DNA of 64,000 nucleotides from Nitrospirales bacterium (GTDB taxonomy: Bacteria; Nitrospirota; Nitrospiria; Nitrospirales; UBA8639): the NCBI GenBank assembly GCA_031315865.1, contig JALDRJ010000002.1:186001-250000 (forward strand), read 5' to 3'. Under the pieces are notes generated by a model. That model was not told the DNA's origin, ran no database searches, and saw only the letters and a program-made list of their open reading frames with translations. The translations under genes were made by a program, and so were the position numbers. Each line of letters opens with the position of its first letter. Positions within the stretch are counted from its first letter, which is position 1. Positions 20,082 through 57,698 of this stretch are shown piece by piece.

Positions 20082-20137
20082 ATTTTACGGCACTTTGATT
20101 CGTCCGTAACACCGCTGTAACAAATGTGCTCTATGCT
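20082..20137 (+). promoter_or_regulatory. Pho box and -10 of the porin promoter
   Basis: Four 7-bp units spaced exactly 11 bp: ATTTTAC (20082), CTTTGAT (20093), CCGTAAC (20104), CTGTAAC (20115). Exactly 10 nt after the last unit is TATGCT (20132-20137), a good -10. This is the PhoB-activated layout of four half-sites replacing the -35. The transcript would start near 20144. Confidence 0.8.
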
Positions 20138-20217
20138 CAGGTCGAACTGAGTACACGAACCATTGCGATGGAATGCGATGAAATATTCTCTATACATCAA
20201 CCAATTAGGAGGTTTGA

Positions 20218-21609
20218 ATGATCACTGCCAGCATGAAAGTCATGGCTCTCATTTTTATGCTCTTGTATGGGAGCATTCTCACAACCCCAGCCTTTGCCGG
20301 AGATACCCTTGCTGATGTGCTCCGGGAAAAAGGCACGATTTCCAAAGAGGACTACATCCGCATTCAGGCCCATGAGGAGAAACAAGCTGCGGAGATGAGC
20401 AAAAAGAAAAAAGATGATGAAGTGAAAGTTGGATGGGGCAAAAAAGGTTTTTCTCTGACGACAGCGGACGGACTCTTCAGCACGTCCATTCAATGGAGAT
20501 TCCAAGGCCGCTATTCGTACCCGGAGAGCGGAGACCCCCGAACGGTCAGTGCCTTCAATGACCAAGACGAACAAAACTTTGAACTCCGACGAGTCCGGAT
20601 GAAAGTCGGGGGATTTGGGTATAAGCCCTGGATCCAATATTATTTCGAAATGGATTGGCAACCCAGCAGAGCCTCGGGTGAGGATTCGAACGACTCTGCA
20701 CCCCGGTTACTCGATTGGCGCATCATGCTCGAGAAATTTCAATGGCTGCAGCTCCAGATCGGTCAATGGAAAGTTAACTACAACCGCGAACGGGTCGACT
20801 CCTCCGGAAAACAGCAATTCGTCGAGCGCTCGATCGTCAATCGGGTGTTTACGATCGATCGTCAAGTGGGTGTCATGATCCAAGGCCATCTGGCGCCGGG
20901 AACCTTCGCCGATTCACGATACTATCTCGGCGTGTTTAATGGATCTGGCCGAGGCGAGCTGAACGATGATGACCAGATGATGTACATGGGACGCTTTCAA
21001 TGGAACTTCCTGGGCAGGGATCTCAAATGGGAGCAGAGCGACACAGAATATCATGAAAGGCCTGCCGGAAGCGTGGCATTCGGTGCGTATACGACGACCG
21101 GAAAGTGTACTCGATGGTCATCGAGCGGTTGCGGAACCTTGTCCAGTCCCGATTCTCTGGGAAACGCGTTTACGAGCGACTCCAACGCCGCCAATGGTCA
21201 ATTCCGTGTCGAAGGGATGGTCGAGGAATTTGCGTTTAAATGGCGAGGACTATCGATTCAACATGAATATCATTGGAAACAAGTCAAAGACTCTGGTGGA
21301 GGCATCAGCGGCGTTCCGAGTTCCAAGACAAATCTCATGGGAAGTTACTCGCAGATTGGGTACTTTCCTCATGGCTTGATCCCGGCCATACCGAAACCGT
21401 TGGAAGTTGCATTTCGATATGCCTTCGTCGATCCAAATGTTTTTGCCAAAAATGACAAACGCCAAGAGTTTACCTTCGCGACGAACTGGTTTTTTGCCGG
21501 GCATCGAAACAAACTGACCCTGGACGTCTCTTACCTCACACTGGCCGTCCCAACCGGTAAAGATTTAATCGAAGAACGAATCCGACTCCAATGGGACGTC
21601 TCGTTCTAA
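20218..21609 (+). CDS. Phosphate-selective porin (OprO/OprP type)
   Basis: An outer-membrane beta-barrel for anion or phosphate uptake. A signal peptide ends at about residue 27 (TTPAFA). A short coiled-coil and Lys-rich segment (EEKQAAEMSKKKKDDEVK) is followed by amphipathic strands ending in Phe (IRLQWDVSF), the usual C-terminal barrel signal. GGAGG lies 7 nt before the ATG. Its own Pho box is upstream and a terminator follows, so it is a monocistronic phosphate-starvation gene. Confidence 0.88.
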   Translation: MITASMKVMALIFMLLYGSILTTPAFAGDTLADVLREKGTISKEDYIRIQAHEEKQAAEMSKKKKDDEVKVGWGKKGFSLTTADGLFSTSIQWRFQGRYSYPESGDPRTVSAFNDQDEQNFELRRVRMKVGGFGYKPWIQYYFEMDWQPSRASGEDSNDSAPRLLDWRIMLEKFQWLQLQIGQWKVNYNRERVDSSGKQQFVERSIVNRVFTIDRQVGVMIQGHLAPGTFADSRYYLGVFNGSGRGELNDDDQMMYMGRFQWNFLGRDLKWEQSDTEYHERPAGSVAFGAYTTTGKCTRWSSSGCGTLSSPDSLGNAFTSDSNAANGQFRVEGMVEEFAFKWRGLSIQHEYHWKQVKDSGGGISGVPSSKTNLMGSYSQIGYFPHGLIPAIPKPLEVAFRYAFVDPNVFAKNDKRQEFTFATNWFFAGHRNKLTLDVSYLTLAVPTGKDLIEERIRLQWDVSF

Positions 21610-21639
21610 CGTAAGCGGCGCACTCCTCCGCTTATCTTC

Positions 21640-21680
21640 GACTGCCCCTCTTCCCATCAGGAGGGGCAGTCGTACCTTTT
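21640..21680 (+). terminator. Rho-independent terminator after the porin
   Basis: GACTGCCCCTC (21640-21650) pairs perfectly with GAGGGGCAGTC (21661-21671) around a 10-nt loop and is followed by a T-rich run (CCTTTTCTTCTT), 30 bp after the porin stop. Confidence 0.85.
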
Positions 21681-21697
21681 CTTCTTGAGAGTCTTCT

Positions 21698-22493: not shown

Positions 22494-22549
22494 ATTTTAC
22501 ATAGATGACACGTCTCAGTGACACGAAAGTAACAGGAATCTCCTAAGAT
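22494..22549 (+). promoter_or_regulatory. Pho box and -10 of the CBS-psiE promoter
   Basis: Units on an 11-bp grid: ATTTTAC (22494), ATGACAC (22505), CAGTGAC (22516), AAGTAAC (22527). A 10-nt spacer then leads to TAAGAT (22544-22549). Same geometry as the porin site. The start codon at 22605 is 55 bp further on. Confidence 0.78.
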
Positions 22550-22604: not shown

Positions 22605-22991
22605 ATGGTCCACATCCATGATGTGATGAAACGGGACATCGTCACGGTCGAGGATCGCATGTCTGTCTCATCTGTCGCAAACCTCATGCGCATTCAGAGG
22701 ATTGGCAGCGTACTCGTCAAACGCGAAGGAGAAATCGTCGGAATCGTCACGGAATCCGACATCGTTAGAAAGGTCGTCTCGATGCATCGATTCGCGGAAT
22801 ATACTCCCGTGCATCGAATCATGAGCAAACCCGTCATTTGCATCGATGAAGATAGTCCGATCTTCGAAGCTGCTGACTTGATGGACCGGTCTCACATCAG
22901 ACACTTGGGCGTCGCCAATCGTCATGATGGAATTATTGGCGTACTTTCGGTCCGTGACTTATTGCACCCGGTAGCCATCGATGAATTCTAA
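22605..22991 (+). CDS. CBS-domain protein, Pho-controlled
   Basis: A 128-residue Bateman module: MVHIHDVMKRDIVTVEDRMSVSSVANLMRIQRIGSVLVKREGEIVGIVTESDIVRKV and a second CBS in MSKPVICIDEDSPIFEAADLMDRSHIRHLGV. Likely an adenosyl-ligand sensor, soluble and cytoplasmic. AAGGAAA is 6 nt upstream. It sits directly behind a Pho box and overlaps or abuts psiE, so it is probably induced by phosphate limitation. Confidence 0.88.
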   Translation: MVHIHDVMKRDIVTVEDRMSVSSVANLMRIQRIGSVLVKREGEIVGIVTESDIVRKVVSMHRFAEYTPVHRIMSKPVICIDEDSPIFEAADLMDRSHIRHLGVANRHDGIIGVLSVRDLLHPVAIDEF

Positions 22992-23031
22992 AAGACTCGA
23001 TATTTCTACACACAAGGAGAACCAAGCATTT

Positions 23032-23511
23032 ATGACCTATCTTCAATCAGGCCTATCCGCATTAGGACGATCATTCGCCATCGATATGACTCAATTCTGG
23101 ATCCAGGGCGTCAAAGTCATCCTCAGCCTTTTGATTCTCACGATCTTGACCGCCCTGGCAGGCGGCACACTCATGACGTTCATAGGACTCCAATCACTCT
23201 TCACCGAACCATTAGAGATTGCAATGCGGCAAGTCATCGTGAATACGCTGCTTCTCTTGGCCATCGTCGAAGTCCTGAAAACGACACTCACCTACTTTTC
23301 TGAAGGTCGGGTGAAAGTCACGTTTATCGTTGACACGATTCTCGTCGTCATGCTGACGGAAGTCATTTCACAATGGTTCAAAGAAGCGCATATGATCCAG
23401 TGGGGCATCCTCGGCGGGATCATTGCTACACTCGCACTCACTCGCGTGATAGCGGTCCAATGGTCACCCACAAAAATCGATGACCGTCCTGACTCATCCA
23501 TCACGACCTAA
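23032..23511 (+). CDS. psiE: PsiE-family phosphate-starvation membrane protein
   Basis: A PF06146-type protein with four transmembrane helices and the hallmark segment LAIVEVLKTTLTYFSEGRVKVTFIVDTILVVMLTEVI. Its biochemical function is unknown in any species. ATG 23032 has AAGGAG about 12 nt upstream; ATG 22981, which overlaps the CBS stop, is an alternative that adds 17 residues. Co-transcribed with the CBS gene from the Pho promoter, matching the starvation-inducible naming. Confidence 0.85.
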   Translation: MTYLQSGLSALGRSFAIDMTQFWIQGVKVILSLLILTILTALAGGTLMTFIGLQSLFTEPLEIAMRQVIVNTLLLLAIVEVLKTTLTYFSEGRVKVTFIVDTILVVMLTEVISQWFKEAHMIQWGILGGIIATLALTRVIAVQWSPTKIDDRPDSSITT

Positions 23512-25034: not shown

Positions 25035-26582
25035 CTACTGTCCATTCCTGATCTGAAAGACGAACTGCACGGGGCGATTGAAGAGTTTTTCGAGGAATGC
25101 CGCTCGTTTTTGAGCTGCCCAAACCTCGAGTTCTGGATCGGTCGAACAGACTAAGTCAAATTGGATACACTGCTTGATGGATACCGATACGTCTTGAACG
25201 ACCCCAAATTGGCTACGGTCAAGCCCATCAGTGATACGGAGCATCGCGCTCAGAAATTTGACGACTTTTCGTTGAGGTCCGGATAGCGCCTCAAACATCG
25301 CATGTTTTTTGTGGGGAATGGCCCTCCGATGATATCGTACGACATTCGCCACGATGTCGACTTCATCGACGGTAAGCCCGGACAAATCTCCGTGCTTAAT
25401 CAAGTAATACCCGTGTTTATGATGTTGACGGCGGCGAATGAGGTATCCCACATCATGTAACAATGCGGCATAGTCCAACCATTCTCGCTCTTGATCACCC
25501 AGGCCATGCAACAGCTTCAGGTCATCGAAAACCTGGAGAGCCAGCTTCGAGACATGCAGGGCATGACTTTCCGCAAAATGACACTTGCGGCCAAACAAGA
25601 TGATATTCCGACGGCGTGTGTTGGGAATCTCTTTTTCAGCTTCAAGTCCTTCACGATTCCGTTTAATAAAATCGAAGATCAACCCTTCACGAAGGGCCTT
25701 GTCACTGATGGTCAGCGTTTTCGCCCCAGACTTTTCCAATAAACACCGGAAAAACATCGCCCCCGGGAGCAACGTATCCACCCGTTTGGGGTCAAGACCA
25801 GGGATCAACAAACGTGATTTCATCTCACACTGCGCGAGCTCTGCCTCGAGTGAGCGAATTTCATCAAGTTCTATCGTCGCGAGATTTAATTGAGGAACCG
25901 GTTTTCCCGTGCGCCGAAGATAAATGATTTCAGTGAGATTTCCCGCGGTCCCAGACGTCGCTACGACACTCGCGAACGTGAACTCTCGCGAAGACTTCAG
26001 GCCGACATCCAACCCGTCATTAATAGTTTTTTCTAGCTCCTTTAACTGACTTTTTGTTGGAGGATCTTGTTTGAGATACCGGTCTTTCAGCCGAATCGTG
26101 CCGAGCTTGAGGCTCCGCCCAAACAACATCTGCTTCCGGTTACACGCAATCACTTCGACTGACCCCCCTCCAACATCAGCAATCAGTGAAGGATCATCGG
26201 ACAACTCCATACTATTCCCCACACCGAGATAAATAAGGCGTGCTTCTTCTTTCCCTGTGATAACCTGAACATTCAGACCGGTTTGCGCTTCAACCTCTTG
26301 AATGAACTCGCCCCCATTTTTCGCTTCCCGTACGGCACTTGTGGCCGTTGCCACGGTTCGCTCGAATCCCTTATTCCGAGCGAGCGTGGTAAGGTTTCGC
26401 AAGGCATCTATTCCCCGAGCCATCGCGGCCTCGGACAGGGTGCTATTCGTAAACGTGCCATCTCCCAGTCGTACCATATCTTTAAAACGGTCCATGACTT
26501 TGTACGAGAAGTCTGTGCCGATTTCGACCAAAACCATGTGAATGGAATTGGTCCCGATGTCAATCACGGCAAGTTTGCTCAT
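25035..26582 (-). CDS. ppx: Exopolyphosphatase / guanosine pentaphosphatase (Ppx/GppA)
   Basis: Degrades polyphosphate from the ends, or pppGpp. The ASKHA-type N-terminal half has AVIDIGTNSIHMVLVEI (phosphate-1 loop) and LIADVGGGSVEVI (phosphate-2 loop). The C-terminal HD-like helical domain includes the HDVGYLI segment and HKHGYYLIKHGDL. 515 residues, full length. It follows the receiver-less PhoB-like gene after 73 bp on the same strand and is probably transcribed from the Pho box at 27122-27177. Confidence 0.92.
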   Translation of the reverse strand: MSKLAVIDIGTNSIHMVLVEIGTDFSYKVMDRFKDMVRLGDGTFTNSTLSEAAMARGIDALRNLTTLARNKGFERTVATATSAVREAKNGGEFIQEVEAQTGLNVQVITGKEEARLIYLGVGNSMELSDDPSLIADVGGGSVEVIACNRKQMLFGRSLKLGTIRLKDRYLKQDPPTKSQLKELEKTINDGLDVGLKSSREFTFASVVATSGTAGNLTEIIYLRRTGKPVPQLNLATIELDEIRSLEAELAQCEMKSRLLIPGLDPKRVDTLLPGAMFFRCLLEKSGAKTLTISDKALREGLIFDFIKRNREGLEAEKEIPNTRRRNIILFGRKCHFAESHALHVSKLALQVFDDLKLLHGLGDQEREWLDYAALLHDVGYLIRRRQHHKHGYYLIKHGDLSGLTVDEVDIVANVVRYHRRAIPHKKHAMFEALSGPQRKVVKFLSAMLRITDGLDRSQFGVVQDVSVSIKQCIQFDLVCSTDPELEVWAAQKRAAFLEKLFNRPVQFVFQIRNGQ

Positions 26583-26655: not shown

Positions 26656-27033
26656 TTATCCGCTCGACGGATCGATGATACGCAGGCGGTAACCGATCCC
26701 CCAGACAGTATCGATCGCAAAATCCGAGAGGCTCAAGGACTGTAATTTTCGACGGAGTTTAACTATATGCCGGTCGATCGTTCGAGGTTCCACGAAGACG
26801 TCTTGTCCCCACACGTTCGCAAGCAACGCTTCACGAGAACAGATACCGTTCGACTCATCATACAATACTAACAAAATGTGATATTCCTTTCGAGTCAATC
26901 GTATCTTTCTCTCCCGGTAAAATACCTCCCTGGTCATCTCATGAAATTCCAACACTACGTCATTCACGGTCGGCTGCCCGGGCATTGGGCCTGGCGATTG
27001 ATGCATGCTTAAGGCCGTATTTGGAGTGAACAC
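26656..27033 (-). CDS. Orphan PhoB/OmpR-type winged-helix DNA-binding protein without receiver domain
   Basis: Only 125 residues. After a short Pro-rich N-terminus comes a complete Trans_reg_C winged helix: VLEFHEMTREVFYRERKIRLTRKEYHILLVLYDESNGICSREALLANVWGQDVFVEPRTIDRHIVKLRRKL, then the wing AIDTVWGIGYRLRI. There is no phospho-acceptor receiver domain, so it cannot be phosphorylated like PhoB. GTG 27033 or ATG 27006 could be the start. A four-unit Pho box lies upstream and ppx downstream. It could compete with or modulate PhoB at its own target sites. Confidence 0.85.
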   Translation of the reverse strand: MFTPNTALSMHQSPGPMPGQPTVNDVVLEFHEMTREVFYRERKIRLTRKEYHILLVLYDESNGICSREALLANVWGQDVFVEPRTIDRHIVKLRRKLQSLSLSDFAIDTVWGIGYRLRIIDPSSG

Positions 27034-27121
27034 GTCATCAACCTTTGAGTTTATCTCGTCGGTGGAGTTGGGCCATGGTTCACGGACAGTTCCACATTAT
27101 TCACGATCGAAGGGTAGCAGG

Positions 27122-27177
27122 ACGAAATTGCCGGAGTGTTAGCACTATGTAACATCCTCGTAAACAACCATTGACGA
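27122..27177 (-). promoter_or_regulatory. Pho box upstream of the orphan regulator and ppx
   Basis: Reading the minus strand: TCGTCAA (27171-27177), TGTTTAC (27160-27166), ATGTTAC (27149-27155) and TGCTAAC (27138-27144), all 11 bp apart. The -10 position (27122-27127, TTTCGT), 10 nt after the last unit, is weak. That suits a promoter dependent on an activator. Confidence 0.72.
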
Positions 27178-27242: not shown

Positions 27243-28805
27243 TTACTCACATTGAACATAACTGCGGAGACCTTGGACGTACGAAGATTGTTGAAGTTTA
27301 TCAAGAGCCTTATTTTCGATCTGTCGGATACGCTCACGCGTCACACCATACACCTTGCCAATTTCAACACGATTCAATTCTTCCTGATCTTCACTCAACC
27401 CATATCGCTTCGTCACAATTTCCTGCTCTTTGGGACGTAGGATTGCCAAAGCCTGCAAGATACGTTCTTTCAATTGTTGCTGAGTCGCCAAATGAAACGG
27501 GCTCGGACCATGCGCACGCAACCATCCCGACGATGAACCCGACGCCGGCGATTCAACCATCAGAAAATCCAACGAAACCGGCTCGAGAATGAGCTCGCGC
27601 ACACGATCCACGCATGAATCAGAAAGCTCAGATCCATCCACAATCTCCTGAAATGATGGCTCACGGCCTAATTGTTGCGCCAACCTACGCTGAGCATGAT
27701 TCACGGCCCCCTTCGCCCTAGACATATGGGCCGGAATTCTCACAGTCGACTCTTGGTCGTCTAACGCTCGCCTCATCGCTTGGCAGATCCACCAGGAGGC
27801 ATAAGTGCTAAATTGACTCCCTTGCTGTGGATCAAAACGTTCGACGGCTTTCATAAGTCCGATATTGCCTTCTTGAATAAAATCCATCAGGTCGAGATGC
27901 GTACCGTAATACTTTCTCGCGAGTGACACGACCAGACGAAGATTCCGTTGAACCACGACTTGCACGGCCTCATTCATACGGACTTCCACACGGTCAAGTT
28001 CATCAACGACCTTGATCAATCTATCCAGTGACATCTGCGCGACCTGTTGCGCGAGCATCGTCCATTCTTGCTGAATCCTCCGTAACGGCTCGATCGTCTC
28101 ACTCTCCACATCCCTCTCTCCATAGACGTCCATCAACCGGCGAATCGATTCATCGAGTGACGCGAAAGAGACATCCATAGAGATTGGCCAATTGAGATGA
28201 TGCAAGATCTGTAAAACCGTGTCTCGAGAGGCGACGACCTGAGTTCTCACATCTTTCATGTTTTGGGAAAACTTAGACACGATGGAAGGCCTCAGGCCCA
28301 GGCGACGGACGAGATTGAGGATTTGAGTTTGCAACACACCACACTCGTGCGCGATGCGGTGTTGTTTTCTTGGGACATGCCAACCTGCGCCTTTACGACA
28401 ATCGGCGACTAAAAAGCGGCGCAAAAGTCCAATCGCGTCTTGAAGCAAAGCCCCCTGCGTCACCGTCTTCGCATGGTCAGGACTCACTTCATCCTGAAGG
28501 TTCGCCGCACTCTTCTGCCTTCGATAATCGATGAGATCGTTGATGGACCTGTCGCCTTTATCAACTGACACCAATAACTCAAGCAAACTATGAACCGTCA
28601 TGGGATTCGTATATAACAGGGAATCGTGGCGGTCCTTCCACGTTTGGACGTCCTTTAATAACCGTCGTTGTTCTTGATGGGTAGGCAATGGCGATGAGCC
28701 GATTTCACGCAGATAGAGTTCCACGACATCAGGCTTCCTGGAAATTGAACGGACAGCGCACGTTACGGTATTTCCACGAAGATCATATGAACGTCCACGA
28801 GGCAT
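27243..28805 (-). CDS. Sigma-70 family RNA polymerase sigma factor
   Basis: A group 1/2-like sigma factor, about 520 residues. Region 1.2 ([26 protein letters not shown]) is near the N-terminus, then a non-conserved insert of about 200 residues. Region 2 ([39 protein letters not shown], then [16 protein letters not shown]), region 3 and region 4 ([31 protein letters not shown]) follow. ATG 28805 is chosen because AAGGA lies 7 nt upstream; a GTG at 28871 is less well placed. A three-unit Pho box upstream implies phosphate-starvation induction, which is unusual for this class. Probably a second RpoD/RpoS-like factor, not the main sigma. Confidence 0.88.
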
Positions 28806-28896
28806 ACAAGGGTCCTTTCCATAATCCGACGTTGTTGAAGTAAGGCTCCTGATCGTGATCATTCCTTTCACCCACGCTCGATCACGATCTTGAGTT

Positions 28897-28941
28897 AGCG
28901 TACTTCCACGACGTTACAATCGTGTGTCAATCATGTAACTG
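28897..28941 (-). promoter_or_regulatory. Pho box upstream of the sigma factor gene
   Basis: Minus-strand units CAGTTAC (28935-28941), TTGACAC (28924-28930) and TTGTAAC (28913-28919) are 11 bp apart. Ten nt after the last is TACGCT (28897-28902), a moderate -10. The leader to the ATG at 28805 would be about 85 nt. Confidence 0.75.
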
Positions 28942-29089
28942 ATGTATCAAAAAAGAACTTTCGTTTCGCCGCGAATGGGCCTGAAGAACAGCCCCGCATA
29001 GGAGGGAACAATTGTCTTCTGGGCAGACAGTCACCTAGCAAGGTTGAAGCTGAGCGGCCCCCAACCTCGCCGGGTGACGTGATGCGCCA

Positions 29090-30454
29090 TCAATAGTTCA
29101 AAAATTCGGTCTGTCTCCATGGACGCGAATGTGTGTGATGAATCCCGAGATTTTTGCAGTTCGCGTAGAAAGTCGTCGTCGCGGGCCAATCAGAAAAGAT
29201 TCCTAACACGCCAACTTTCTGCGCCAGGACATCAATCGTCCGCAAGATATCCCCATCGTTTGTCAACGCATCGAGGATGGTTTGATAGTAAAACGTTCCG
29301 CCACCCCGCAAGACATCTTCCACGATTCGGCCGGAGCGCTCGGTCGTCCACGTGATGATCTTGAGGCCATGGGCTTTTGCCTCCTCCGCATATTGCGAGG
29401 GCTCGATCTCCCCCTGTTGATTCACCCTGAGGAGCATGGGCATCGGAGGCGCCACGATCTTGACGCCTCTGTCAGTCAAGTTCTTCAAAAATGGACCTGG
29501 ATCCGGACGAGGGATAGGCCCACCATCAAGAAACACGGCCTGCTCGCCATATCGTGGCCGCTTCTTGATCCAGGTAAGGACATCGTCGAGGTTGAAGGAT
29601 TGCGCAAACACACGATCGGGATGAATACCGGCTTCCCAGTACTCATCAATCATCTTCAAGGCATAGTTTTCCTGGCTGCCGAAAATGGCGATAATGTCCT
29701 CTTCATTCCCTTCTTTAAGTTCAGGAGTAAACTTGACACCCATCCGCTCGAATAGTGCGATACTGGCCTTGTGGGACAGCAAGGTGCCTCCCGTGGCATA
29801 TAGATCCGTCCGGTAATCAGCGGTTCCACCAAGATACCCGGCCACAGTCGTGGCGACCGTATTAGCCGCATCCATCTTGCCTTTGAGAGATTGAAATTGC
29901 TCAAGCGTGAAATCCGAGGCACAGCACGTGATCGCTGCAGCATTCGTCAAGCGGCCTTGTGCATCAAATTCCGGCGGGACCTTACATTGGTGCCTGAGGT
30001 CTTCACGGGCGACGACATCTGTGGTCGTATGCAGGTCGCATTGCGCGTGACGGCACACCAATTCACCATCCTTCGTAAAAGTCACATCGCACTCCTGAAT
30101 GCCGGCTCCCATGCGATGAGCCGCCTCGTAAGACTCTTGGGTATGTTCCGGAAATTGCATCGGTGCGCCGCGGTGACTGATTGAAAAGTCACTGCGTCGA
30201 AATGACTGTCTCTTCAGGCATTGCTTGAGTTCTCTCTTTAACTTCCCGCGTTCCATCTTTTCGACCAAATACGAAGGGCGAGGACCGAGTTGAACAGACT
30301 GCTCCCGTCTTTGGAGGGACACCTTGCTCACATCTGCATGATTCACATCTGCATGATTCACATCTGCATGAGTCACATTTGCATCGACTTCGGCCTGCAT
30401 CACGAGTGTGAGCAGACCCAAGACCCAGAAACCTGTGATTGTTTGGCAACGCAT
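29090..30454 (-). CDS. Secreted glycerophosphodiester phosphodiesterase
   Basis: Releases glycerol-3-phosphate from glycerophosphodiesters outside the cytoplasm. A signal peptide (TITGFWVLGLLTLVMQAEVDA) is followed by a low-complexity NHADV repeat. The GDPD TIM barrel has HRGAPMQFPEHTQESY, the acidic metal ligands in ECDVTFTKDG and the catalytic CRHAQCDLHTTTDV. GAGGAG lies upstream of the ATG. It lies 127 bp downstream of phoX on the same strand, a natural P-scavenging pair. Confidence 0.9.
   Translation of the reverse strand: MRCQTITGFWVLGLLTLVMQAEVDANVTHADVNHADVNHADVSKVSLQRREQSVQLGPRPSYLVEKMERGKLKRELKQCLKRQSFRRSDFSISHRGAPMQFPEHTQESYEAAHRMGAGIQECDVTFTKDGELVCRHAQCDLHTTTDVVAREDLRHQCKVPPEFDAQGRLTNAAAITCCASDFTLEQFQSLKGKMDAANTVATTVAGYLGGTADYRTDLYATGGTLLSHKASIALFERMGVKFTPELKEGNEEDIIAIFGSQENYALKMIDEYWEAGIHPDRVFAQSFNLDDVLTWIKKRPRYGEQAVFLDGGPIPRPDPGPFLKNLTDRGVKIVAPPMPMLLRVNQQGEIEPSQYAEEAKAHGLKIITWTTERSGRIVEDVLRGGGTFYYQTILDALTNDGDILRTIDVLAQKVGVLGIFSDWPATTTFYANCKNLGIHHTHSRPWRQTEFLNY
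30328..30387. repeat. 15-bp tandem repeat, four units
   Basis: TCACATCTGCATGAT is repeated at 30328 and 30343, then with one change at 30358 and more at 30373. On the minus strand it encodes a five-residue NHADV repeat just after the signal peptide of the glycerophosphodiesterase. Fifteen bp keeps frame, so length can vary by slippage without loss of function. Confidence 0.85.
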
Positions 30455-32784: not shown

Positions 32785-32824
32785 TATTTACATATTATTA
32801 GCGATGAAGTAACGGCTCGGTAAC
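32785..32824 (+). promoter_or_regulatory. Pho box upstream of the HExxH/PSD/Lgt operon
   Basis: TATTTAC (32785), TATTAGC (32796), AAGTAAC (32807), CGGTAAC (32818), spaced 11 bp. Ten nt after the last unit the -10 position (32835-32840) reads GATGAA, a weak match. Transcription would begin near 32847, downstream of the in-frame ATG at 32836, which argues for a later translation start. Confidence 0.7.
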
Positions 32825-32943
32825 ACTGAATACCGATGAATCGTGGTAGATTGATCACCAGCCATCTATGCGAATACACGCGAAGGGATGATGGAGGAGA
32901 AAACGATAGTGACGTGTATCTTTTAACGATCGAAGGAGGACGA

Positions 32944-36430: not shown

Positions 36431-36442
36431 ACAGAGGACCCC

Positions 36443-40871: not shown

Positions 40872-40927
40872 CGTTAACAGTTTTGTGATGTGAGCATAAC
40901 AGCACCGACATATCATCCCTGTATCCT
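40872..40927 (+). promoter_or_regulatory. Pho box and -10 of the zinc-ribbon gene
   Basis: CGTTAAC (40872), TTGTGAT (40883), GCATAAC (40894), CCGACAT (40905), 11 bp apart, then 10 nt to TATCCT (40922-40927). Clear match to the common pattern. Confidence 0.8.
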
Positions 40928-48933: not shown

Positions 48934-50433
48934 ATGAGCCTTCATTCACCTGCATTCAAAAAAATCGTGATCTGCTGTGACGGCACCTGGAATAAACCAG
49001 AAGTCGCGATGAATTCAAAACGCTACCGGCCGACGAATGTCCTCCGTATCGCAAGAGCTGTATCAAACGTCGATGAACAGTTTCATCATCAAATTATCTA
49101 CTATGATTCAGGCATCGGAACCGACGGGGGGCTGGGCCACCGGCTCATCGGCGGCCTGACGGGCTACGGACTATCCGCTCGTATCATGAAAGCCTATCGC
49201 TTTGTCTGCCATAACTACGTGGAAGGCGATGTGCTGTATTTTTTTGGCTTTAGCCGAGGGGCTTACACAGTCAGGGCGTTGGCCGGGATGATCGGAGCGG
49301 TTGGCTTGCTGCATGCCAACGATCTTCATCACCTGCCGACCGCGTTCCGTTACTACAACACCCATCCAAAACAACGGCCATCCTTGCCGTTCGCGAAAGC
49401 ATTCATTGCCTCTCACCATACCCGATCGGTCAGGATCAAATTTTTAGGTGTCTGGGATACGGTGGGCGCGTTGGGCATTCCCATCCCCTACCTTCGACCA
49501 TTCACGAAAAAATGGGTGGGGTTTTTCAATACGGAGCTAGGAAGCCATGTGGAACACGGATATCATGCGCTTGCCATCGATGAACGGCGAAGACCATTCA
49601 AACCAAATCTCTGGTCCCGGTACGAACAATCTCCAGGATCAGCCACCAAAGACGTCTGCCAGGTTTGGTTTCCCGGCTCGCATTCCGATGTCGGCGGAGG
49701 GGCCGACGATACGACGTTATCCGATGAGTCACTGCTGTGGATGGTGAATCGAGCCGTTCAGTGCGGGTTACACTTCCCCGATCACTTCAGGACTGACCTC
49801 GACAAGACTCACAGGCGGGAAAGCAGCAAGCCGCAGAATTCTCTGAGTCTTCCGTACAAAGGCTTAATTCTTATCGGCGTCTTTCCCCACAAACGTATCA
49901 TTGGAAATCGACGGGCGGTCGAACGCTTGTACGAAAGAACTCCCAGCACCTCGCCGATCTTACGAAACCTGCCACACCGCCTATCCGCCCCGCTCGAACC
50001 CGTCATCAATGAGATGATTCACGAAAGTGCGTTTCAAAAGTACGTGGCGTGCGAAATTTCAGCACAAGGCAGTTGCTATCAACCGCCGAATCTGGCGAAC
50101 GCGATCAACTCGCTCCCCGTGTTCAGGGAAAAATATTATCGAACACGTTCTCACATCAGAAAAGCACTCAACCTTAAAGGACAGGTTCTCTCCCAACAGC
50201 AGACGGAAGACTGCCGGGTTCTCGATTTTTCGCCTCACGGCGGGGCCAAACTGCAGATGTCGGAACCGGCCAACCGCATAGGTCAGACCTTTATCCTGAA
50301 CATTGATGACCCTGAATATAGGGGGAAAGACTATCGAGGACAAGTCGCGTGGCAGAGCAAGTACAGCCTTGGGCTGAAGTTCCTCTCAGAGACCGGAAAA
50401 TCGAATGACGATCCGCTTAGAGTTCCGCAGTGA
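48934..50433 (+). CDS. DUF2235 hydrolase with C-terminal PilZ-like domain
   Basis: 499 residues. DUF2235 (Tle1-like alpha/beta hydrolase): FKKIVICCDGTWNKPE, YYDSGIGT, nucleophile elbow GFSRGAYT, FLGVWDTVGALGIP, and the SHSDVGGGA Asp segment. The final 75 residues (EDCRVLDFSPHGGAKLQMSEPANRIGQTFIL, ending VAWQSKYSLGLKF) have the PilZ DxSxxG core but no N-terminal RxxxR, so cyclic-di-GMP binding is doubtful. ATG 48934 replaces a longer frame that has no start. It could be a lipase-like effector or an intracellular hydrolase; no T6SS genes are nearby. Confidence 0.82.
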   Translation: MSLHSPAFKKIVICCDGTWNKPEVAMNSKRYRPTNVLRIARAVSNVDEQFHHQIIYYDSGIGTDGGLGHRLIGGLTGYGLSARIMKAYRFVCHNYVEGDVLYFFGFSRGAYTVRALAGMIGAVGLLHANDLHHLPTAFRYYNTHPKQRPSLPFAKAFIASHHTRSVRIKFLGVWDTVGALGIPIPYLRPFTKKWVGFFNTELGSHVEHGYHALAIDERRRPFKPNLWSRYEQSPGSATKDVCQVWFPGSHSDVGGGADDTTLSDESLLWMVNRAVQCGLHFPDHFRTDLDKTHRRESSKPQNSLSLPYKGLILIGVFPHKRIIGNRRAVERLYERTPSTSPILRNLPHRLSAPLEPVINEMIHESAFQKYVACEISAQGSCYQPPNLANAINSLPVFREKYYRTRSHIRKALNLKGQVLSQQQTEDCRVLDFSPHGGAKLQMSEPANRIGQTFILNIDDPEYRGKDYRGQVAWQSKYSLGLKFLSETGKSNDDPLRVPQ

Positions 50434-51082
50434 CGGTATGGCGGATAATCTTCCCTTCGACCATGTACACCACGAGTTCCGCGACATTGGTCGCATGATC
50501 GGCGATGCGTTCAATATATTTGGAGATGAAGGAAAGCCGGATGGCGCGAGAAATCGTTTTCGGGTTTTCAATCATGTAGGACAATAATTCCCGGAAGAGT
50601 TGCTCGTTCAATTCATCGATTTCATCATCGTCTTCCAGAACCTTTCGCGCCAACACCGAATCGCCGCGTACGAACGCATCTAGAGCCTCCCCGACCATTT
50701 TCAGGCATTTTTCCGCCATGGCGGGAATATCGATGTAGGGCTTCAGCTGCGGTTCTTCATTGAGTTCGATCGTCCGTTCACAGATATTTTCCGCCAAGTC
50801 GCTCATCCGTTCCAAGTCGGTGGAGATTTTCATGGCCGTGGTGATGAATCGAAGATCTCGCGCGGCAGGTTGATAGAGCGCGAGGAGATTCAGACATGCC
50901 TCGTCGACTTCGACATCCAAGGTATTGACTCGGCGGTCATTATTGATGACCTCCTGCGCCAAATCAACATCGCGACTCGTCAGAGCATGTGTCGCCTGCT
51001 GAATCTGCTCCTCGACCAAGGCACCCATTCTCAATATTTTTTGTTTCAGCTCAGTTAATTCTTCGTCAAAATGGCGCTGCAC
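50417..51082 (-). CDS. phoU: PhoU, phosphate transport and signalling regulator
   Basis: Peripheral helical protein coupling the Pst transporter to PhoR. Two PhoU three-helix repeats with the metal-binding E(D)xxxD motifs (RDLRFITTAMKISTDLERMSDLAENI, then ISKYIERIADHATNVAELVVYMVEGK). Starts with GTG at 51082 behind GAGGAGG. Last gene of the pstSCAB-phoU operon. Its 3' end overlaps the convergent DUF2235 gene by 17 bp. Confidence 0.94.
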   Translation of the reverse strand: MQRHFDEELTELKQKILRMGALVEEQIQQATHALTSRDVDLAQEVINNDRRVNTLDVEVDEACLNLLALYQPAARDLRFITTAMKISTDLERMSDLAENICERTIELNEEPQLKPYIDIPAMAEKCLKMVGEALDAFVRGDSVLARKVLEDDDEIDELNEQLFRELLSYMIENPKTISRAIRLSFISKYIERIADHATNVAELVVYMVEGKIIRHTVTAEL

Positions 51083-51109
51083 AGGAATACCTCCTCATAG
51101 GGGTCCATG

Positions 51110-51973
51110 TCATCCAAATCGCCCAGTCACATAGTCTTCCGTACGACGATCTCCAGGGGTAGTGAATATTTTCTTCGTAACATCATACTCGATGAGTTCA
51201 CCCATCAAGAAGAACCCCGTGTAATCTGACACGCGAGCGGCTTGCTGCATGTTATGCGTGACGATGACGACCGTGAGCTGCTCTTTCAGGGAATGCAACA
51301 GTTCTTCGATCTTGCCAGTTGAAATAGGGTCTAATGCCGAGCAGGGCTCATCCATCAGCAACACGTTCGGTCTCACGGCCAAGGCGCGCGCGATACAGAG
51401 TCGCTGCTGCTGGCCGCCGGAAATCCCAAGCGCGCTCGTATGCAACCGGTCTTTGACTTCATCCCACAGCCCCGCGCCCTGGAGACTTTCTTCAACGATT
51501 TCGTCCAATTGAGCACGGCGTCGTACGCCTTTGAGTTGCGGGCCATACGCCACATTCTGGTAGATGGACTTGGGAAATGGATTGACTTTTTGGAACACCA
51601 TCCCGACTTTCGAGCGTAAATCCGTGATATCCAGGGAGGGCGCGTAAATGTCCTGCCCGTCTATGCGTATGGTTCCATCGAGACGAGAACCTTCGACTAA
51701 ATCGTTCAAGCGGTTAAAACAGCGTAACAAGGTCGATTTGCCGCATCCGGAAGGTCCGATAAAGGCGGTCACTTTATTTTGCAGGATCGTGAGATCAATC
51801 TTAAACAGCGCCTGTTTTTCGCCATAATAAAAGTTCGCCTTCTCGACTGTAATTTTAGCGGCAGGGCGCCGCTCATCATTATCTTGATCTGCAATCACGA
51901 AGGTCTCCACCGGTTTAGGGGATTGTTTGGCTGTCGAGGATGATTTGGAAAGAATGCCAATAAGTGAACTCAT
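51110..51973 (-). CDS. pstB: PstB phosphate transport ATPase (main operon)
   Basis: Walker [11 protein letters not shown]-loop [24 protein letters not shown], signature ISGGQQQR, Walker [15 protein letters not shown]-loop THNMQQ. An N-terminal extension of about 35 residues precedes the ABC domain. AGGAAGG precedes the ATG. Partner of the long-form PstA/PstC. Confidence 0.95.
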
Positions 51974-52011
51974 GAGTATTATACCTTCCTGACAGTATGA
52001 AATAACACGAC

Positions 52012-53646
52012 TTATATGGCAGAAGATCTGAACTTTTTCCGCATGTGATTCCGGATGGCAATGGCCGCAAGATTCAGGAAGATGACCACCATCACAAGAA
52101 TCAAGGTGGTCACGTACACCATCGGCTTTGCGGCTTCAACGTTCGGCGACTGAAAACCGACATCGAAAATGTGAAACCCGAGATGCATGAATTTGCGCTC
52201 AAAATGCACGAATGGAAAATGCGTGTCCAATGGGAGAGCCGGAGCCAATTTTACGACCCCAGTGAGCATCAGAGGGGCCACTTCGCCTGTTGCGCGAGAC
52301 ACCGCCAAGATTAATCCGGTGAGGATGCCCGGCAACGCGCAAGGCAGAATCACGCGAACCATGCTTTCAATCTTCGTGGCGCCTAACGCCAGAGATCCCT
52401 CTCGATATTCTCGCGGCACGGCCGAAAGACCTTCTTCTGTCGCGACGATGACAACCGGCACGGTCAATAAGGCCAACGTCAACGAGGCCCATAGGATGCC
52501 CCCTGTTCCAAACGTCGGGTTCGGTAACGCTTCCGGATAAAAAAGGCTGTCAATGGTTCCTCCGACCGCATACACAAAGAATCCCAACCCGAACACGCCG
52601 AAGACGATCGAAGGGACCCCCGCCAGGTTATTCACCGCAATACGCACGATACGGACGATCAACCCTTGTTTCGAGTATTCCCTGAGGTAAAAAGCCGCCA
52701 GGACTCCGAACGGCACCACGGCCACGCTCATGATCAAGACCATCATGACCGTTCCAAATATGGCCGGGAATATGCCTCCCTCCGTATTCGCTTCTCGAGG
52801 CTCTTCAGTCAAAACGGCCCAAAAGTTTTGACAATAGGTCAGGATTTTGTCAAACGTCCCCATCGCATTCGGACGGATGGCATCCACAATTTGCCCAACC
52901 GGTAAAGTTTTTTCCTGGCCATTCGCATCGACCAGGACCACTGAATATTCGTCCAATCGTTGTGTCAAACCTCGGAGAGAATCGACGTGAGCTTGGTACT
53001 CTTTTTCTAAACTCTGAATGTGCTGACGAAGCTCTACGACGTCCGTCGAATTCCCACGGCCTGCGAGTTCTAGGCCCCGAATTTTAAGGCGGGCGCTTTC
53101 GATCTCATGATTAATGTCGCCAATCTCGTCACGTCGTATATGTTCAATGTTGTCATGCAGTTCATTCGCCTGTTCGACCAGGGGCCCTAAACGCTTCCAG
53201 CTCTCGGCGTGTCCTGAGCTGACGGTCTCCTCTCCATGTTTGATCGCTTGAACCCAGCCATAAAAGTCACCCCATTCTCTTCGCTCGAAGGCCACCGCAT
53301 CATTCGGCGTTTCAGCGGACATGATCTGGTCGGTATCGACCCATCGAAAGTCCAGGCCATAGAGGTCTCGATTCCCGATCTTCAACTGAACACGCGTTTT
53401 TCCGTCAGGAAATTGAGGAGTTTCAGAATCAGGAATGACCTCTTCCCCCTTGAGTTCCCCGAGTATTTTAGTCCCGTCTTTGAGCTGCATTTCCACGAGC
53501 GCGTGAGGCCAAAAAAACCCTAGTCCATTGATCATGATCAGGATGAGAACTCCCCCGACCAGGAGCAACGACGTGGCGACCGCTGCACCGCAGAACCAAA
53601 CGAACAACGTTCCTGAGTCGAAAAACTTTTTGATCTCTCGTGTCAT
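52012..53646 (-). CDS. pstA: PstA permease, enlarged form
   Basis: 544 residues against about 290 for the compact form. After one helix (residues about 15-43) there is a periplasmic insert of about 220 residues, partly coiled coil ([35 protein letters not shown] and [23 protein letters not shown]). The canonical six-helix permease with [45 protein letters not shown] follows. It resembles the long PstA of gammaproteobacteria. Coupled to PstC upstream. Confidence 0.9.
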
Positions 53647-53657
53647 GATGCCGACCG

Positions 53658-55973
53658 CTAAAATTGGCTGTAGCGTGCCCGGAGCCGCTGTCTCACGATT
53701 TCGGCGAAGGTGTTCACCACAGACGTGAACAGAAACAGGATTAACCCCGCCAAGAAGAGCAGCCGGTACAGCGTTCCGCCATGAGGCGCCTCTGGCATTT
53801 CCACCGCAATGTTCGCCGACAACGTTCGAAACCCATTAAACAGATTCATATCCATAACCGGGGTATTACCGGTCGCCATTAAGACGATCATGGTTTCGCC
53901 CACGACGCGTCCGAGTCCGATCATCAGCGCGGAAAACAACCCAGGGCTGGCTGAAACGATGACGAGTTTGGTCAAGGTCTGCCATGGGGTCGCCCCGAGA
54001 GCGAGGGACCCCGCCACTAAATGACGCGGGACATTATTGATCGAATCTTCAGAGATGCTAAAAATTGTGGGGATGACCGCCATACCCATCGCAAAGGCGA
54101 TCACGAGCGCATTCCGCTGATCATACCCCAACCCAAAGTTGGACAGTAACCATCGCTTATAGTCTGAATCAAACAGCCAACTTTCAACCTGCTGATTCAT
54201 CTGCAAACAGACCCACACCGTCCCGCCCATGACGACGAGCAGCGCCAAGAGCTCCGCCACGTTCCCAGACTTGCCTCTCATCAGTGGAGGCAGAAATTGC
54301 CAGCCGACGCAGACCAGAAGAATCGCCAACGGTAGAAATATGAACATGGCCACGACTGCGGGAAAGATCTTTTCCAGCAACGGAGCGAACCACAATCCAG
54401 CAAGAAATCCCAGCACCACCGTAGGCAGGGCTTCCATGATCTCCACCACCGGCTTGACGACTGCCCGAACGTTTGGATTCATGAACATCGCGGTGTAAAT
54501 CGCCGCCAATACCGCGATCGGAGTCGCGAGGAGCATCGCGTAGATCGTGCCCTTCAACGTCCCGAACATCAACGGCCATAAGCCAAATTTCGGCTCAAAT
54601 GCGTCAGACCCTCCAGTTGACTGCCAAATATGATTCGGTTCTTCGTAGCCTTCGTACAATATCGCCGAAAATAACGACGCCACCGTCGATTCCGGGTGTT
54701 CATTCTCGAGATCATACACCGTGAGTATTCCCGCCTGATCCACGGCAACGACACCATCAGACTTCGGCGAAAACTTGACTGACAACACAGACGACCCGTT
54801 TCCCTCGATATTGAGTAACGTCTGATGTGACGTCGAATGATGGACGGCTATCCCACCGGAAGAATCGGTTGTGACAAATCCCTTGTCTCGCAATGAAGGA
54901 GAAATCGCGGTCACCGCCCCGTGATGCCGATCGAAGTCTCGTATTTTTTCCAATCGCGGATCTCCGCCCACATCTGGATTGATGACCGACATCCACACCG
55001 ACACTGTCCCTTTATCCGTCCCGACCACGATCGATCGATCGCCGATCAAGTACGACAAAGCCGTAATGGATGTCCCGACCGAGTAGGTCCCCATCAATCT
55101 TGGGTTCTCGACAGTTCTGATATCCCAGTACATTAATTTTCCGGCAGACGTGCCGGCGATCAAATTTTCTCCAAGATCATCCAAGAGCAGGACTGAAATG
55201 GTGTCAACGCCCTCATCCGTTACTTCCGTTTGAAGGATCGTGACTTCAGTCTCTTGCGCGAAGAGACCTCCGGATTCCGACTCTTCAACTTTCGTGATGA
55301 AGAGTCGCCCCGATTCCGTCAAGGCACACATGACGGTTCCGTTTTCAATTTCACGATAGGCTAGTTGGGCGATGGGCTCAGAAGTTGGAACGGCCTTAAT
55401 CGGCTCTGCAGAAGTGACGACAGGGCTTATGCTCCTCTGGTCGTTTTGAAATGTGACCTGATAATTGACATAGAGGGGAATGACCCGTCCATCACGTGTC
55501 GCGAGACCATACGTATCGCCTTTTCCCGGAGAGCGAGCGACCGTGGTCACGAGTTCTTCGTCAAATTTTGGGATTGACTCGAGGGGAACAGGCTTGCCGG
55601 CAGGCAGTGCATAGAAGGAAATCTCGCCTTTTTCCAGGAGGTATCCGACTTCCATGTATTCATCAATCCCTACGCCGATCGTGCGAGGGGATTCATTCGC
55701 CAACGATTCCACGATGTGACTGGAAGTGGTTTGCTCGTGAGAAGCCGAATAAAACAGGGGCGCGACTTCAACGAAAAGATACGTGAAAATTCCAAATATG
55801 CTGATGATCGTGGCGAGACCACCGATCGTGATGACGCTGGTGGCCAATGTGTCGACCCAGCGCCGCAAGGTTCTGGTGGTCACACCCGATAGAAAAGAAG
55901 AAGCCGGGGTTTCCGGAATATCAGCTGAATCCGCGGTCGTGTTGACGTTACTCATAAGCTTGTCGATCGTCAT
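53658..55973 (-). CDS. pstC: PstC permease with large propeller-like periplasmic domain
   Basis: 771 residues. The first helix (about 40-65) is followed by some 380 residues of beta-rich repeat (MYWDIRTVENPRLMGTYSVGTSITALSYLIGDRSIVVGTDKGTVSVW) resembling a WD40-like propeller. The transport core ends with [53 protein letters not shown] 55973 has GAGG upstream. The family of long PstC proteins exists in gammaproteobacteria; the role of the propeller is unknown, perhaps substrate or partner sensing in the periplasm. Confidence 0.88.
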   Translation of the reverse strand: MTIDKLMSNVNTTADSADIPETPASSFLSGVTTRTLRRWVDTLATSVITIGGLATIISIFGIFTYLFVEVAPLFYSASHEQTTSSHIVESLANESPRTIGVGIDEYMEVGYLLEKGEISFYALPAGKPVPLESIPKFDEELVTTVARSPGKGDTYGLATRDGRVIPLYVNYQVTFQNDQRSISPVVTSAEPIKAVPTSEPIAQLAYREIENGTVMCALTESGRLFITKVEESESGGLFAQETEVTILQTEVTDEGVDTISVLLLDDLGENLIAGTSAGKLMYWDIRTVENPRLMGTYSVGTSITALSYLIGDRSIVVGTDKGTVSVWMSVINPDVGGDPRLEKIRDFDRHHGAVTAISPSLRDKGFVTTDSSGGIAVHHSTSHQTLLNIEGNGSSVLSVKFSPKSDGVVAVDQAGILTVYDLENEHPESTVASLFSAILYEGYEEPNHIWQSTGGSDAFEPKFGLWPLMFGTLKGTIYAMLLATPIAVLAAIYTAMFMNPNVRAVVKPVVEIMEALPTVVLGFLAGLWFAPLLEKIFPAVVAMFIFLPLAILLVCVGWQFLPPLMRGKSGNVAELLALLVVMGGTVWVCLQMNQQVESWLFDSDYKRWLLSNFGLGYDQRNALVIAFAMGMAVIPTIFSISEDSINNVPRHLVAGSLALGATPWQTLTKLVIVSASPGLFSALMIGLGRVVGETMIVLMATGNTPVMDMNLFNGFRTLSANIAVEMPEAPHGGTLYRLLFLAGLILFLFTSVVNTFAEIVRQRLRARYSQF

Positions 55974-56025
55974 CTAGCCTCACCACTTCATAATCACGAA
56001 GTGGCGCATTGACACTCAAACACAA

Positions 56026-56069
56026 AGAGCCATGCCTTCATCCTGGAACCGCATCAAAGGCATGGCTCT
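56026..56069 (-). terminator. Intercistronic hairpin between pstS and pstC
   Basis: AGAGCCATGCCTT (56026-56038) pairs perfectly over 13 bp with AAGGCATGGCTCT (56057-56069). In the minus direction it is followed by a T-rich stretch (TTGTGTTTG). Position after pstS suggests partial termination, or 3' stabilisation to make more PstS than permease. A second 7-bp hairpin lies at 55983-56004. Confidence 0.65.
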
Positions 56070-56154
56070 CGTGCTTATTCTGACTTAACGGTTCATTGCG
56101 CCCTCATAACAGTCATGCGAGAACGTGGACAACAGAAAATCGCACGATTGAGAG

Positions 56155-57195
56155 TTATGACATTTCGCCAATCTTTTTATCAATCAAGTTCTGCGGCAGT
56201 GGGAAATACCCATCCTTTATGACCACCTGCTGACCCTCCTTACTATACACAAAACTTAAAAATTCCTTTACCAGCGGCGGCAAGGGTTTTCCTGGAGCCT
56301 TATTGACATAGACGAATAAGAATCGCGCCAACGGATATTTCCCGGATGACGCATTGGCAAACGTTGGATCAAAACAGCCTTGGCCTTTTTTGTCGGACAA
56401 TGGGATCGCGCGGACACCTGAAGTTTTATACCCGATCCCGCTGTACCCCATCCCTCCACGGTCCTCCGTCACGCCCTGTACGACGGACGCTGAGCCTGGT
56501 TGCTCTTTGACATCATCCCGATAATCACCTTTTTTCAAGACTTTCTCTTTAAAAAACCCATAGGTTCCTGACGCCGAATTCCTGCCATACAGGCTGACCC
56601 GCCTCGACTCCCATGTTCCATTGAGACCAGCCTTTCCCCACGTGTCGATCGACACATTGTAGCCGCGCCGACGGGTCTTGGAAAAGGCCGCATCAACTTC
56701 CTCCATGCTCAGACATTGCACCGGATTATCCTTGTTCACGTACAAAGCAAGCGCATCGACGGCCACGGGAAACGCCGTTGGCTTATAGCCAAACCTGGCT
56801 TCGAATTTATCCATTTCTTTGGCTTTCATCTGTCGAGACATTGGACCGAGTTGCGCGGTCCCCTCGATCAACGCAGGAGGAGCCGTGCTCGACCCCTTCC
56901 CTTCGATCTGAATCTTGACGTTCGGGTACTGCTTTCGAAAACCCTCGGCCCATAATGTCATCAGATTATTCAACGTATCAGATCCAATGCTGTTCACATT
57001 GCCGGATACGCCACTGACTCGTTCGTAAGCTTTCCACCCAGGATCCGTCATGGAATCACTTCCGGCAAACGTCACCGACGTACCCGTCAGGATCAAACCG
57101 AGCGATAGCCCGATGAATGTGGCGCCTTTCAAGAATGGAACGTAAGACGATCCATGCTTTTCGCCCAAATGATCAAGATTGTTTTCTGCCTTCAT
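56155..57195 (-). CDS. pstS: PstS phosphate-binding protein (main operon)
   Basis: Periplasmic high-affinity phosphate receptor. A signal peptide (residues about 20-45, FIGLSLGLILTGTSVTFAG) is followed by the binding fold: NSIGSDTLNNLMTLWAEGF, KGSSTAPPALIEGTAQLGPMSRQ, and NSASGTYGFFKEKVL containing the phosphate-contact Ser/Gly loop. GGAGG lies upstream of the ATG. First gene of the operon, directly under a four-unit Pho box. Confidence 0.94.
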   Translation of the reverse strand: MKAENNLDHLGEKHGSSYVPFLKGATFIGLSLGLILTGTSVTFAGSDSMTDPGWKAYERVSGVSGNVNSIGSDTLNNLMTLWAEGFRKQYPNVKIQIEGKGSSTAPPALIEGTAQLGPMSRQMKAKEMDKFEARFGYKPTAFPVAVDALALYVNKDNPVQCLSMEEVDAAFSKTRRRGYNVSIDTWGKAGLNGTWESRRVSLYGRNSASGTYGFFKEKVLKKGDYRDDVKEQPGSASVVQGVTEDRGGMGYSGIGYKTSGVRAIPLSDKKGQGCFDPTFANASSGKYPLARFLFVYVNKAPGKPLPPLVKEFLSFVYSKEGQQVVIKDGYFPLPQNLIDKKIGEMS

Positions 57196-57231
57196 AAATG
57201 TACCTCCAGTTAAAACGTAAAACGGTTATGC

Positions 57232-57287
57232 ATAGTAAGGAAACAGTATGTCTGCCGTGTAACGCTCATGTTACGAAGCTGTTAACT
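57232..57287 (-). promoter_or_regulatory. Pho box and -10 of the pst operon
   Basis: Minus-strand units AGTTAAC (57281-57287), TCGTAAC (57270-57276), GCGTTAC (57259-57265), CAGACAT (57248-57254), then 10 nt and TACTAT (57232-57237), an excellent -10. The upstream units overlap the last codons and stop of the 106-aa gene. Best-defined site in the window because pst is a known Pho target. Confidence 0.85.
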
Positions 57288-57591
57288 CCATCTTCACCAC
57301 TGATCGACGGACCAATTTTCCCACGGATGGGCCGAGATATTGGGGTTTCCCGAACGACCGAATCATGATTCCGTATTCAGCCTGTTCTAATTCAAGCTTT
57401 TCCTCCCCCCACAACCAACTCACGGCTTTCAGCACCTCAACCCACCGACAGTGAGGCAACTGAGCGACAAGTTCCTCCACAGACATGGAACCATTCACGT
57501 GGAGAATTGAGAGTATGCTGTCTTGCAGCTCGGCTTCCCGTTCATTCGGGCTCACTTCGTCTTGGGTATTCGCTGACTTAAAGTGTGTCAT
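57271..57591 (-). CDS. Small winged-helix-like protein under Pho control
   Basis: 106 residues, unrecognised. The middle (LQDSILSILHVNGSMSVEELVAQLPHCRWVEVLKAVSWLWGEEKLELEQAEYGIMIRS) fits a helix-turn-helix with wing. It has its own Pho box upstream, and its stop lies inside the pstS Pho box. It sits between pstS and the phoR 3' end and is probably a DNA-binding modulator of the Pho response. The start is ATG 57591. Confidence 0.72.
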   Translation of the reverse strand: MTHFKSANTQDEVSPNEREAELQDSILSILHVNGSMSVEELVAQLPHCRWVEVLKAVSWLWGEEKLELEQAEYGIMIRSFGKPQYLGPSVGKLVRRSVVKMELTAS

Positions 57592-57642
57592 GATTCACGC
57601 TCCAAGGCTCTAGTGAATAATGAATCGTCTGTTCTTTAAGAC

Positions 57643-57698
57643 AGCATAGCCAGAGCATGTTACGGATAGAAGTGAAGGGCGTTACATCGTCGTAAAAT
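57643..57698 (-). promoter_or_regulatory. Pho box and -10 of the 106-aa gene
   Basis: Minus-strand units ATTTTAC (57692-57698), ATGTAAC (57681-57687), TTCACTT (57670-57676), CCGTAAC (57659-57665), then 10 nt and TATGCT (57643-57648). Same -10 hexamer as the porin promoter. Confidence 0.8.

Follow-up and report, generated by a model that had tools for sequence, protein, structure and literature searches.

Pho boxes in described systems and in a Nitrospirales island

The Pho boxes of Escherichia coli phoA and pstS consist of in-phase 11-bp direct repeats that replace the -35 element, with the last unit located 10 nt before the -10 (GTCAC+10+TATAGT in phoA, GTCAC+10+TATTTT in pstS), and pstS has four such units in phase. 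The unit differs between species and phyla (PMC4415409). In cyanobacteria, the SphR Pho box was described as CTTAACCT, three repeats with a 3-bp linker, and most sphR genes are not autoregulated (PMC1906773). A full-text literature search for "Nitrospira" together with "Pho box" returned one paper, in which Nitrospira is mentioned once. Here, we describe ten boxes of this architecture within a 64,000-nt stretch of the 3.78-Mb genome of a Nitrospirales bacterium (G000:C2:186001-250000, hereafter the window). Very probably, they mark PhoB-activated class II promoters of a Pho regulon that is mostly confined to one island, with an nptA-type gene elsewhere.

The nearest named relatives of this genome are the Nitrospirales metagenome-assembled genomes OFTM51 and OFTM334. 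The window contains two pst operons, phoR-phoB, and genes for an O/P-type porin, PsiE, SixA, Ppx, two PhoX proteins, a glycerophosphodiester phosphodiesterase (GDPD), a phytase-like protein, IMPase, CYTH-CHAD, and PPK1 (Table 1).

Architecture of the boxes and the -10 element

The ten sites share the consensus TTWAC / GTNAC / GTNAC / GNAAY in 11-bp units, followed by 10 nt and a -10 of the form TANNNT. Nine of them can be aligned without gaps over 54 bp, as four 5-mers at 11-bp steps, 10 nt, and a hexamer; some units are degenerate, and all four are in phase at every site. An earlier note on this DNA had listed nine sites and a weak tenth, with nnGTAAC units, usually four, repeated every 11 bp, and, at six of them, a -10 starting exactly 10 nt past the final unit. 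The nine were recovered where they had been placed, and the tenth along with them, with four units each; the spacing and number of units hold, but the first unit reads TTWAC and the fourth often GNAAY. A hexamer with an initial TA begins exactly 10 nt past unit 4 in eight of the nine sites (Table 1), whereas the site at 32785 has GATGAA at this position and no convincing -10. A matrix built from relatives only (see below) revealed no conserved TTGACA hexamer at -35. The box lies 10 bp upstream of the TAN3T element, in place of the -35, which is the class II arrangement.

Single units (GTNAC) are short and common, and a loose units-only pattern allowing three mismatches occurred in the genome no more often than its reversed control, as would be expected if the sites were chance or compositional repeats picked by eye. 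The placement of the -10 contradicts this explanation: among 102 distinct boxes chosen by their repeats alone, TANNNT was found at exactly +10 in 85, compared to 2.8 expected, and at other offsets in 0-6. The full-length scores contradict it as well. With a leave-one-out 54-bp matrix, eight of the nine sites reached scores for which chance would give no more than 0.34 matches per 64 kb (site 32785 was not significant, with 1.5 expected), and the weak site given as 32462(-), which really spans 32435-32488, was the next-best match in the window without having been used in training (13.0 bits, about 0.09 expected). The relatives-only matrix, built from 39 boxes of other Nitrospirales genomes and zero window sites, gave all ten sites 8.1-44.9 bits; the sole other window match above 7.5 bits was a copy of a listed box shifted by 11 bp in register. 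Together with the conservation of the boxes at orthologous promoters, which refutes the chance explanation, these scores leave it a practically negligible probability.

Conservation in relatives and across the phylum

Genome-wide scans, here and below, comprise the matches that survived the first-look filter of the search tool. Matrix scans of the genome itself returned the island sites and very little else, with the pstS2 box (57232) as the top match. Applied to the syntenic loci of OFTM51 and OFTM334, the window-trained matrix revealed boxes before the orthologues of the porin, PhoX, and CBS genes, of a divergent sigma factor gene, and of the gene for a small DNA-binding protein, TRC (both described below); in these genomes a box also precedes the Na+/Pi cotransporter gene. 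In a scan of 60 Nitrospirales genomes, the best 28 loci outside G000 and G001 were all located at homologues of the island phosphate genes.

Among 198 Nitrospirota genomes, 89 contain the motif, and pst, phoR/phoB, porin, or CBS genes account for 26 of the best 29 loci phylum-wide. The gene order phoB-phoR-box-small open reading frame-box-pstS2CAB-phoU is largely preserved across the family. PhoB is present in 182 of the 198 genomes, so that a comparison of PhoB presence with box presence is uninformative across the phylum. The earlier note had called the motif lineage-specific and had looked to enrichment upstream of phosphate genes for its support. The boxes do lie upstream of phosphate genes; lineage specificity in the narrow sense is contradicted by the 89 genomes and by a TTAAC core identical to that of the SphR box.

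The unit and its probable reader

As the earlier note maintained, the boxes have the E. coli 11-bp spacing with a different unit: the phase and spacing are the same, and mainly one position of the 5-mer is changed, from GTCAY to GTAAC. The general form of the Nitrospirota unit is KTNAC, with TTWAC as unit 1 and GNAAY as unit 4, and the E. coli consensus CTGTCAT is absent, the third letter of GTCAY being A and the last C. The Nitrospirales matrix gave the E. coli phoA box -3.7 bits and the pstS box 13.9 bits. Because phoA and pstS share the 10-nt spacing, and pstS the four units, the Nitrospirota unit can be read as the E. coli element with GTCAY changed to GTAAC. Since the unit varies among phyla (PMC4415409), the lack of CTGTCAT is no bar to counting these boxes among the broader kind. 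The SphR box resembles that of Nitrospirota in its TTAAC core, 11-bp period, and pst targets; the Nitrospirota box differs in its four units (three in SphR), in having AACA(T) where SphR has AACC(T), and in a -10 strictly fixed at +10. By sequence, the Nitrospirota unit appears closest to the cyanobacterial TTAAC core. By the letters of the consensus, as distinct from a sequence comparison, the closest unit is that of the Bacillus subtilis PhoP box, TT(A/C/T)ACA, also with an 11-bp period. Overall, the window boxes are best classified as Pho boxes of the conventional PhoB (class II) type in which the unit is a variant that appears to be phylum-wide in Nitrospirota.

The encoded PhoB has a receiver (PF00072) and a winged helix (PF00486), and is identical to the E. 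coli protein at R193, T194, D196, H198, R201, R203, and T217, the exception among the DNA contacts being R219K. The loop before the recognition helix is two residues longer in Nitrospirales PhoB (WGYTNAIDIES, compared to WGTNVYVED in E. coli) and lies near the sigma-contacting loop.

Another OmpR-family protein might be the main binder of the boxes, with PhoB controlling something else. The obvious candidate is TRC, a receiver-less PhoB/OmpR-type protein that is encoded in the island under a box of its own and retains R193, T194, D196, H198, R203, and T217 of PhoB; the PhoB effector domain is known to bind DNA without its receiver (PMC4415409). However, TRC has V or A at position 200 and W at position 219 (PhoB numbering), constant in nine orthologues, in place of the R and K/R of PhoB, so that its specificity probably differs. 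Boxes at pst and phoR genes also extend to Nitrospirota families other than those in which a TRC orthologue was found. Control by TRC is accordingly improbable, and PhoB is retained as the binder.

Several points weigh against PhoB control. The PhoB contact residues match those of E. coli save R219K, and the recognition helix does not therefore account for the change from GTCAY to GTAAC. The assignment of the trans-acting factor draws on its gene context, on conserved residues, and on analogy. The matrix evidence is in part not independent, because repeated rounds of one model supplied several of the training sites. No box was found near phoBR, or near the first pst operon (16549-19951, which encodes a separate PstS-like protein) in the window or in relatives; that operon may be constitutive, whereas the porin gene directly downstream of it does carry a box.

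Site architecture, -10 placement, conservation, and gene context can be read directly from the sequence. With the points above considered, we infer that PhoB binds the boxes, that the signal is phosphate, and that the outcome is activation. Under phosphate limitation, PhoR would phosphorylate PhoB, which would bind head-to-tail on the four 11-bp half-sites in place of the -35, and bring RNA polymerase of the sigma-70 type to the -10 that begins exactly 10 nt beyond the last half-site. The boxes would then drive uptake (pstS2 operon, porin, PsiE), organic phosphate hydrolysis (PhoX, GDPD, phytase-like protein), and polyphosphate turnover (Ppx), as well as three regulators, namely the divergent sigma factor, TRC, and a small winged-helix protein.

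Target genes inside and outside the island

The pst operon that the earlier note counted among the targets is that of pstS2; the other uptake and phosphate targets are the OprO/P porin, PsiE, PhoX, GDPD, the phytase-like protein, and the exopolyphosphatase (Table 1). The porin box is also present at porin homologues in G001, G003, G005, G012, G015, G020, and others, and in many Nitrospiraceae genomes the box of the small winged-helix gene forms a pair with that of pstS, at a distance of 120-440 nt.

Table 1. Boxes and genes of the phosphate island, in window coordinates
Feature	Position	Strand	Evidence
Pho-box promoter, OprO/P porin gene	20084..20137	+	4 units + 10 nt + TATGCT; matrix tests
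Phosphate-selective porin O/P family protein	20218..21609	+	PF07396, 8e-14
Pho-box promoter (TAAGAT), CBS-PsiE pair	22496..22549	+	box kept at CBS/PsiE in G001-G004, G015
CBS-domain protein	22605..22991	+	PF00571
PsiE family (phosphate-starvation-inducible E) protein	22981..23511	+	PF06146, 4.8e-8, above cut-off
Exopolyphosphatase Ppx/GppA, downstream of TRC	25035..26582	-	PF02541, 4e-57; TIGR03706 under its cut-off
TRC, receiver-less PhoB/OmpR-type winged-helix DNA-binding protein	26656..27033	-	PF00486, 2.9e-21
Pho-box promoter (TACCCT), TRC + ppx	27111..27164	-	matrix tests; at 11/11 Nitrospiraceae orthologues
Pho-sigma, divergent sigma-70-family factor	27243..28871	-	Pfam regions 1.2, 2, 3, 4
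Pho-box promoter (TACGCT), sigma factor gene	28897..28950	-	matrix tests; sigma-gene box in OFTM51 17.6 bits, OFTM334 24.5 bits
Glycerophosphodiester phosphodiesterase	29090..30454	-	PF03009
PhoX-type alkaline phosphatase	30582..32186	-	PF05787
Weaker Pho-box promoter (TACGCT), phoX1-GDPD	32435..32488	-	13.0 bits untrained; 8.1 bits relatives-only matrix
Pho box without good -10, 32944 operon	32787..32840	+	21.1 bits relatives-only matrix; weaker box at G002 orthologue
825-aa protein, function unassigned by Pfam	32944..35421	+	75% identical in G002
Pho-box promoter (TATAAC; degenerate unit 4), phytase-like gene	38273..38326	+	matrix tests; G001 orthologue weak box, 11.4 bits
Phytase-like esterase	38427..40805	+	PF13449, 2.5e-48
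Pho-box promoter (TATCCT), small zinc-ribbon gene	40874..40927	+	matrix tests; retained in G001 (26.5 bits), G002 (36.0 bits)
97-aa zinc-ribbon protein (CPRC...CTNC)	40978..41271	+	67% in G001, 59% in G002, immediately past box
pstS2-C2-A2-B2-phoU operon	50417..57195	-	Pfam
Pho-box promoter (TACTAT), pstS2-C2-A2-B2-phoU	57232..57285	-	best match genome-wide; conserved across Nitrospiraceae
106-aa winged-helix protein between phoR and pstS2	57271..57591	-	AlphaFold2, Foldseek, orthologue alignment
Pho-box promoter (TATGCT), small winged-helix gene	57643..57696	-	matrix tests
phoR (57781-59220) + phoB (59207-59896), likely trans-acting pair	57781..59896	-	Pfam HisKA/HATPase, Response_reg/Trans_reg_C

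The operon at 32944-38213 encodes, under its box, the 825-aa protein, a phosphatidylserine decarboxylase, an LGT-like protein, and TPR proteins, and envelope remodelling at low phosphate is possible. The 825-aa protein likely starts at the TTG at 32944, which follows AAGGAGG, the ATG at 32836 falling within the box; it gave no Pfam match, and its predicted structure reached a pLDDT of only 31. For the 40872 box, the open reading frame at 41073 was dropped as a target in favor of the 97-aa zinc-ribbon protein, which is conserved directly after the box in G001 and G002. The N-terminal half of the enlarged PstC2 (53658-55973; 771 aa) shows a weak beta-propeller-like match. Between the PPK and phoU genes, both here and in G001, lies the gene for a protein that combines a Tle1-like phospholipase domain with a PilZ domain at the C-terminus (48775-50433 in the window).

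The regulon had been proposed to lie inside one island. It is concentrated there, but a box is also present at an nptA-type Na+/Pi cotransporter gene 2.2 Mb away (C2:2456961), which is 85% identical to the boxed gene of OFTM51. Two further matches were rejected as target sites: C2:1242259, which is antisense within an infC-like gene, and C2:1810137, which has no -10. Two box-like sites, 1.6 kb apart, are possible extra-island targets: C2:1659378 (L134:4367-4420(-)), 280 bp before a PagL-like lipid A deacylase gene, and C2:1661004 (L134:6002-6055(-)), before a TPR lipoprotein gene.

Regulators under the boxes

TRC occupies a stop-to-stop frame of 146 aa (114-156 aa among nine orthologues), and consists of the DNA-binding domain only, lacking the receiver of OmpR/PhoB response regulators. 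A protein search independent of the motif found TRC in 11 Nitrospiraceae genomes, every one with a box of at least 27 bits and with Ppx adjoining; two of these boxes (G228 and G229) were outside every training set. The G001 locus has, between TRC and its box, a short frame rich in cysteine that looks broken (L140:7918-8480). The 106-aa protein is modelled as a small winged helix: the AlphaFold2 core has an H-H-H-E-E order with pLDDT above 90, and the nearest Foldseek folds are winged helices (best E 4e-3).

The divergent sigma factor, here called Pho-sigma, has regions 1.2, 2, 3, and 4, as Group 1/2 sigma-70 factors do, and the presence of regions 1.2 and 3 sets it apart from extracytoplasmic function (ECF) factors of the VreI type, which have regions 2 and 4 only. 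It was found in 3 of the 236 genomes of the order (the other copies at L001:9836-11488 and L003:9830-11509), always beside TRC and under a box, and G001 is the sole genome of the same genus with an orthologue. The window copy forms a clade with those of OFTM51 and OFTM334 (100/100, with long branches), and is placed with strong support, although on long branches, apart from the RpoD clade of its own genome. Pho-sigma is patchily distributed and evolves much faster than its neighbours: the G000 and G001 copies share only 42% identity, compared to 57-89% for most neighbours. In OFTM334, transposase genes flank it on both sides (L003:8473-9564 and 12095-12940), which suggests mobility.

The -35-reading helix and the -10 motif region are largely preserved. 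In region 4, all three copies have (N/D)R(V/T)x instead of the TLEE of RpoD, a segment near the site of sigma contact by E. coli activators. Pseudomonas aeruginosa provides a precedent for PhoB acting with an alternative sigma factor, in that VreI, whose gene also lies under a Pho box, requires PhoB for DNA binding (PMC4971064). VreI is a small ECF factor with an anti-sigma, whereas no anti-sigma was recognized beside Pho-sigma. By analogy, Pho-sigma may work with PhoB. The preserved regions, the altered contact segment, and the precedent would fit a positive loop in which Pho-sigma itself transcribes the Pho-box promoters with PhoB, with no separate second-tier regulon. However, the boxes and -10 elements look alike in genomes without Pho-sigma, which is thus not needed for box function, and no promoter set specific to Pho-sigma was found; such a loop appears unlikely. 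A two-tier phosphate response in some Nitrospirales is a somewhat better, if tentative, possibility: PhoB would switch on Pho-sigma, TRC, and the small winged helix, which could amplify or redirect the Pho response without phosphorylation.

Implications

The promoter rule (four units, 10 nt, TANNNT) and the tested PhoB matrix apply to Nitrospirota, including the nitrite-oxidizing Nitrospira, and make regulon prediction from sequence possible in this phylum. What is new lies in the genes that the boxes control: Pho-sigma and two small proteins that bind DNA, TRC and the small winged helix, become candidate phosphate-controlled regulators that can be tested directly.

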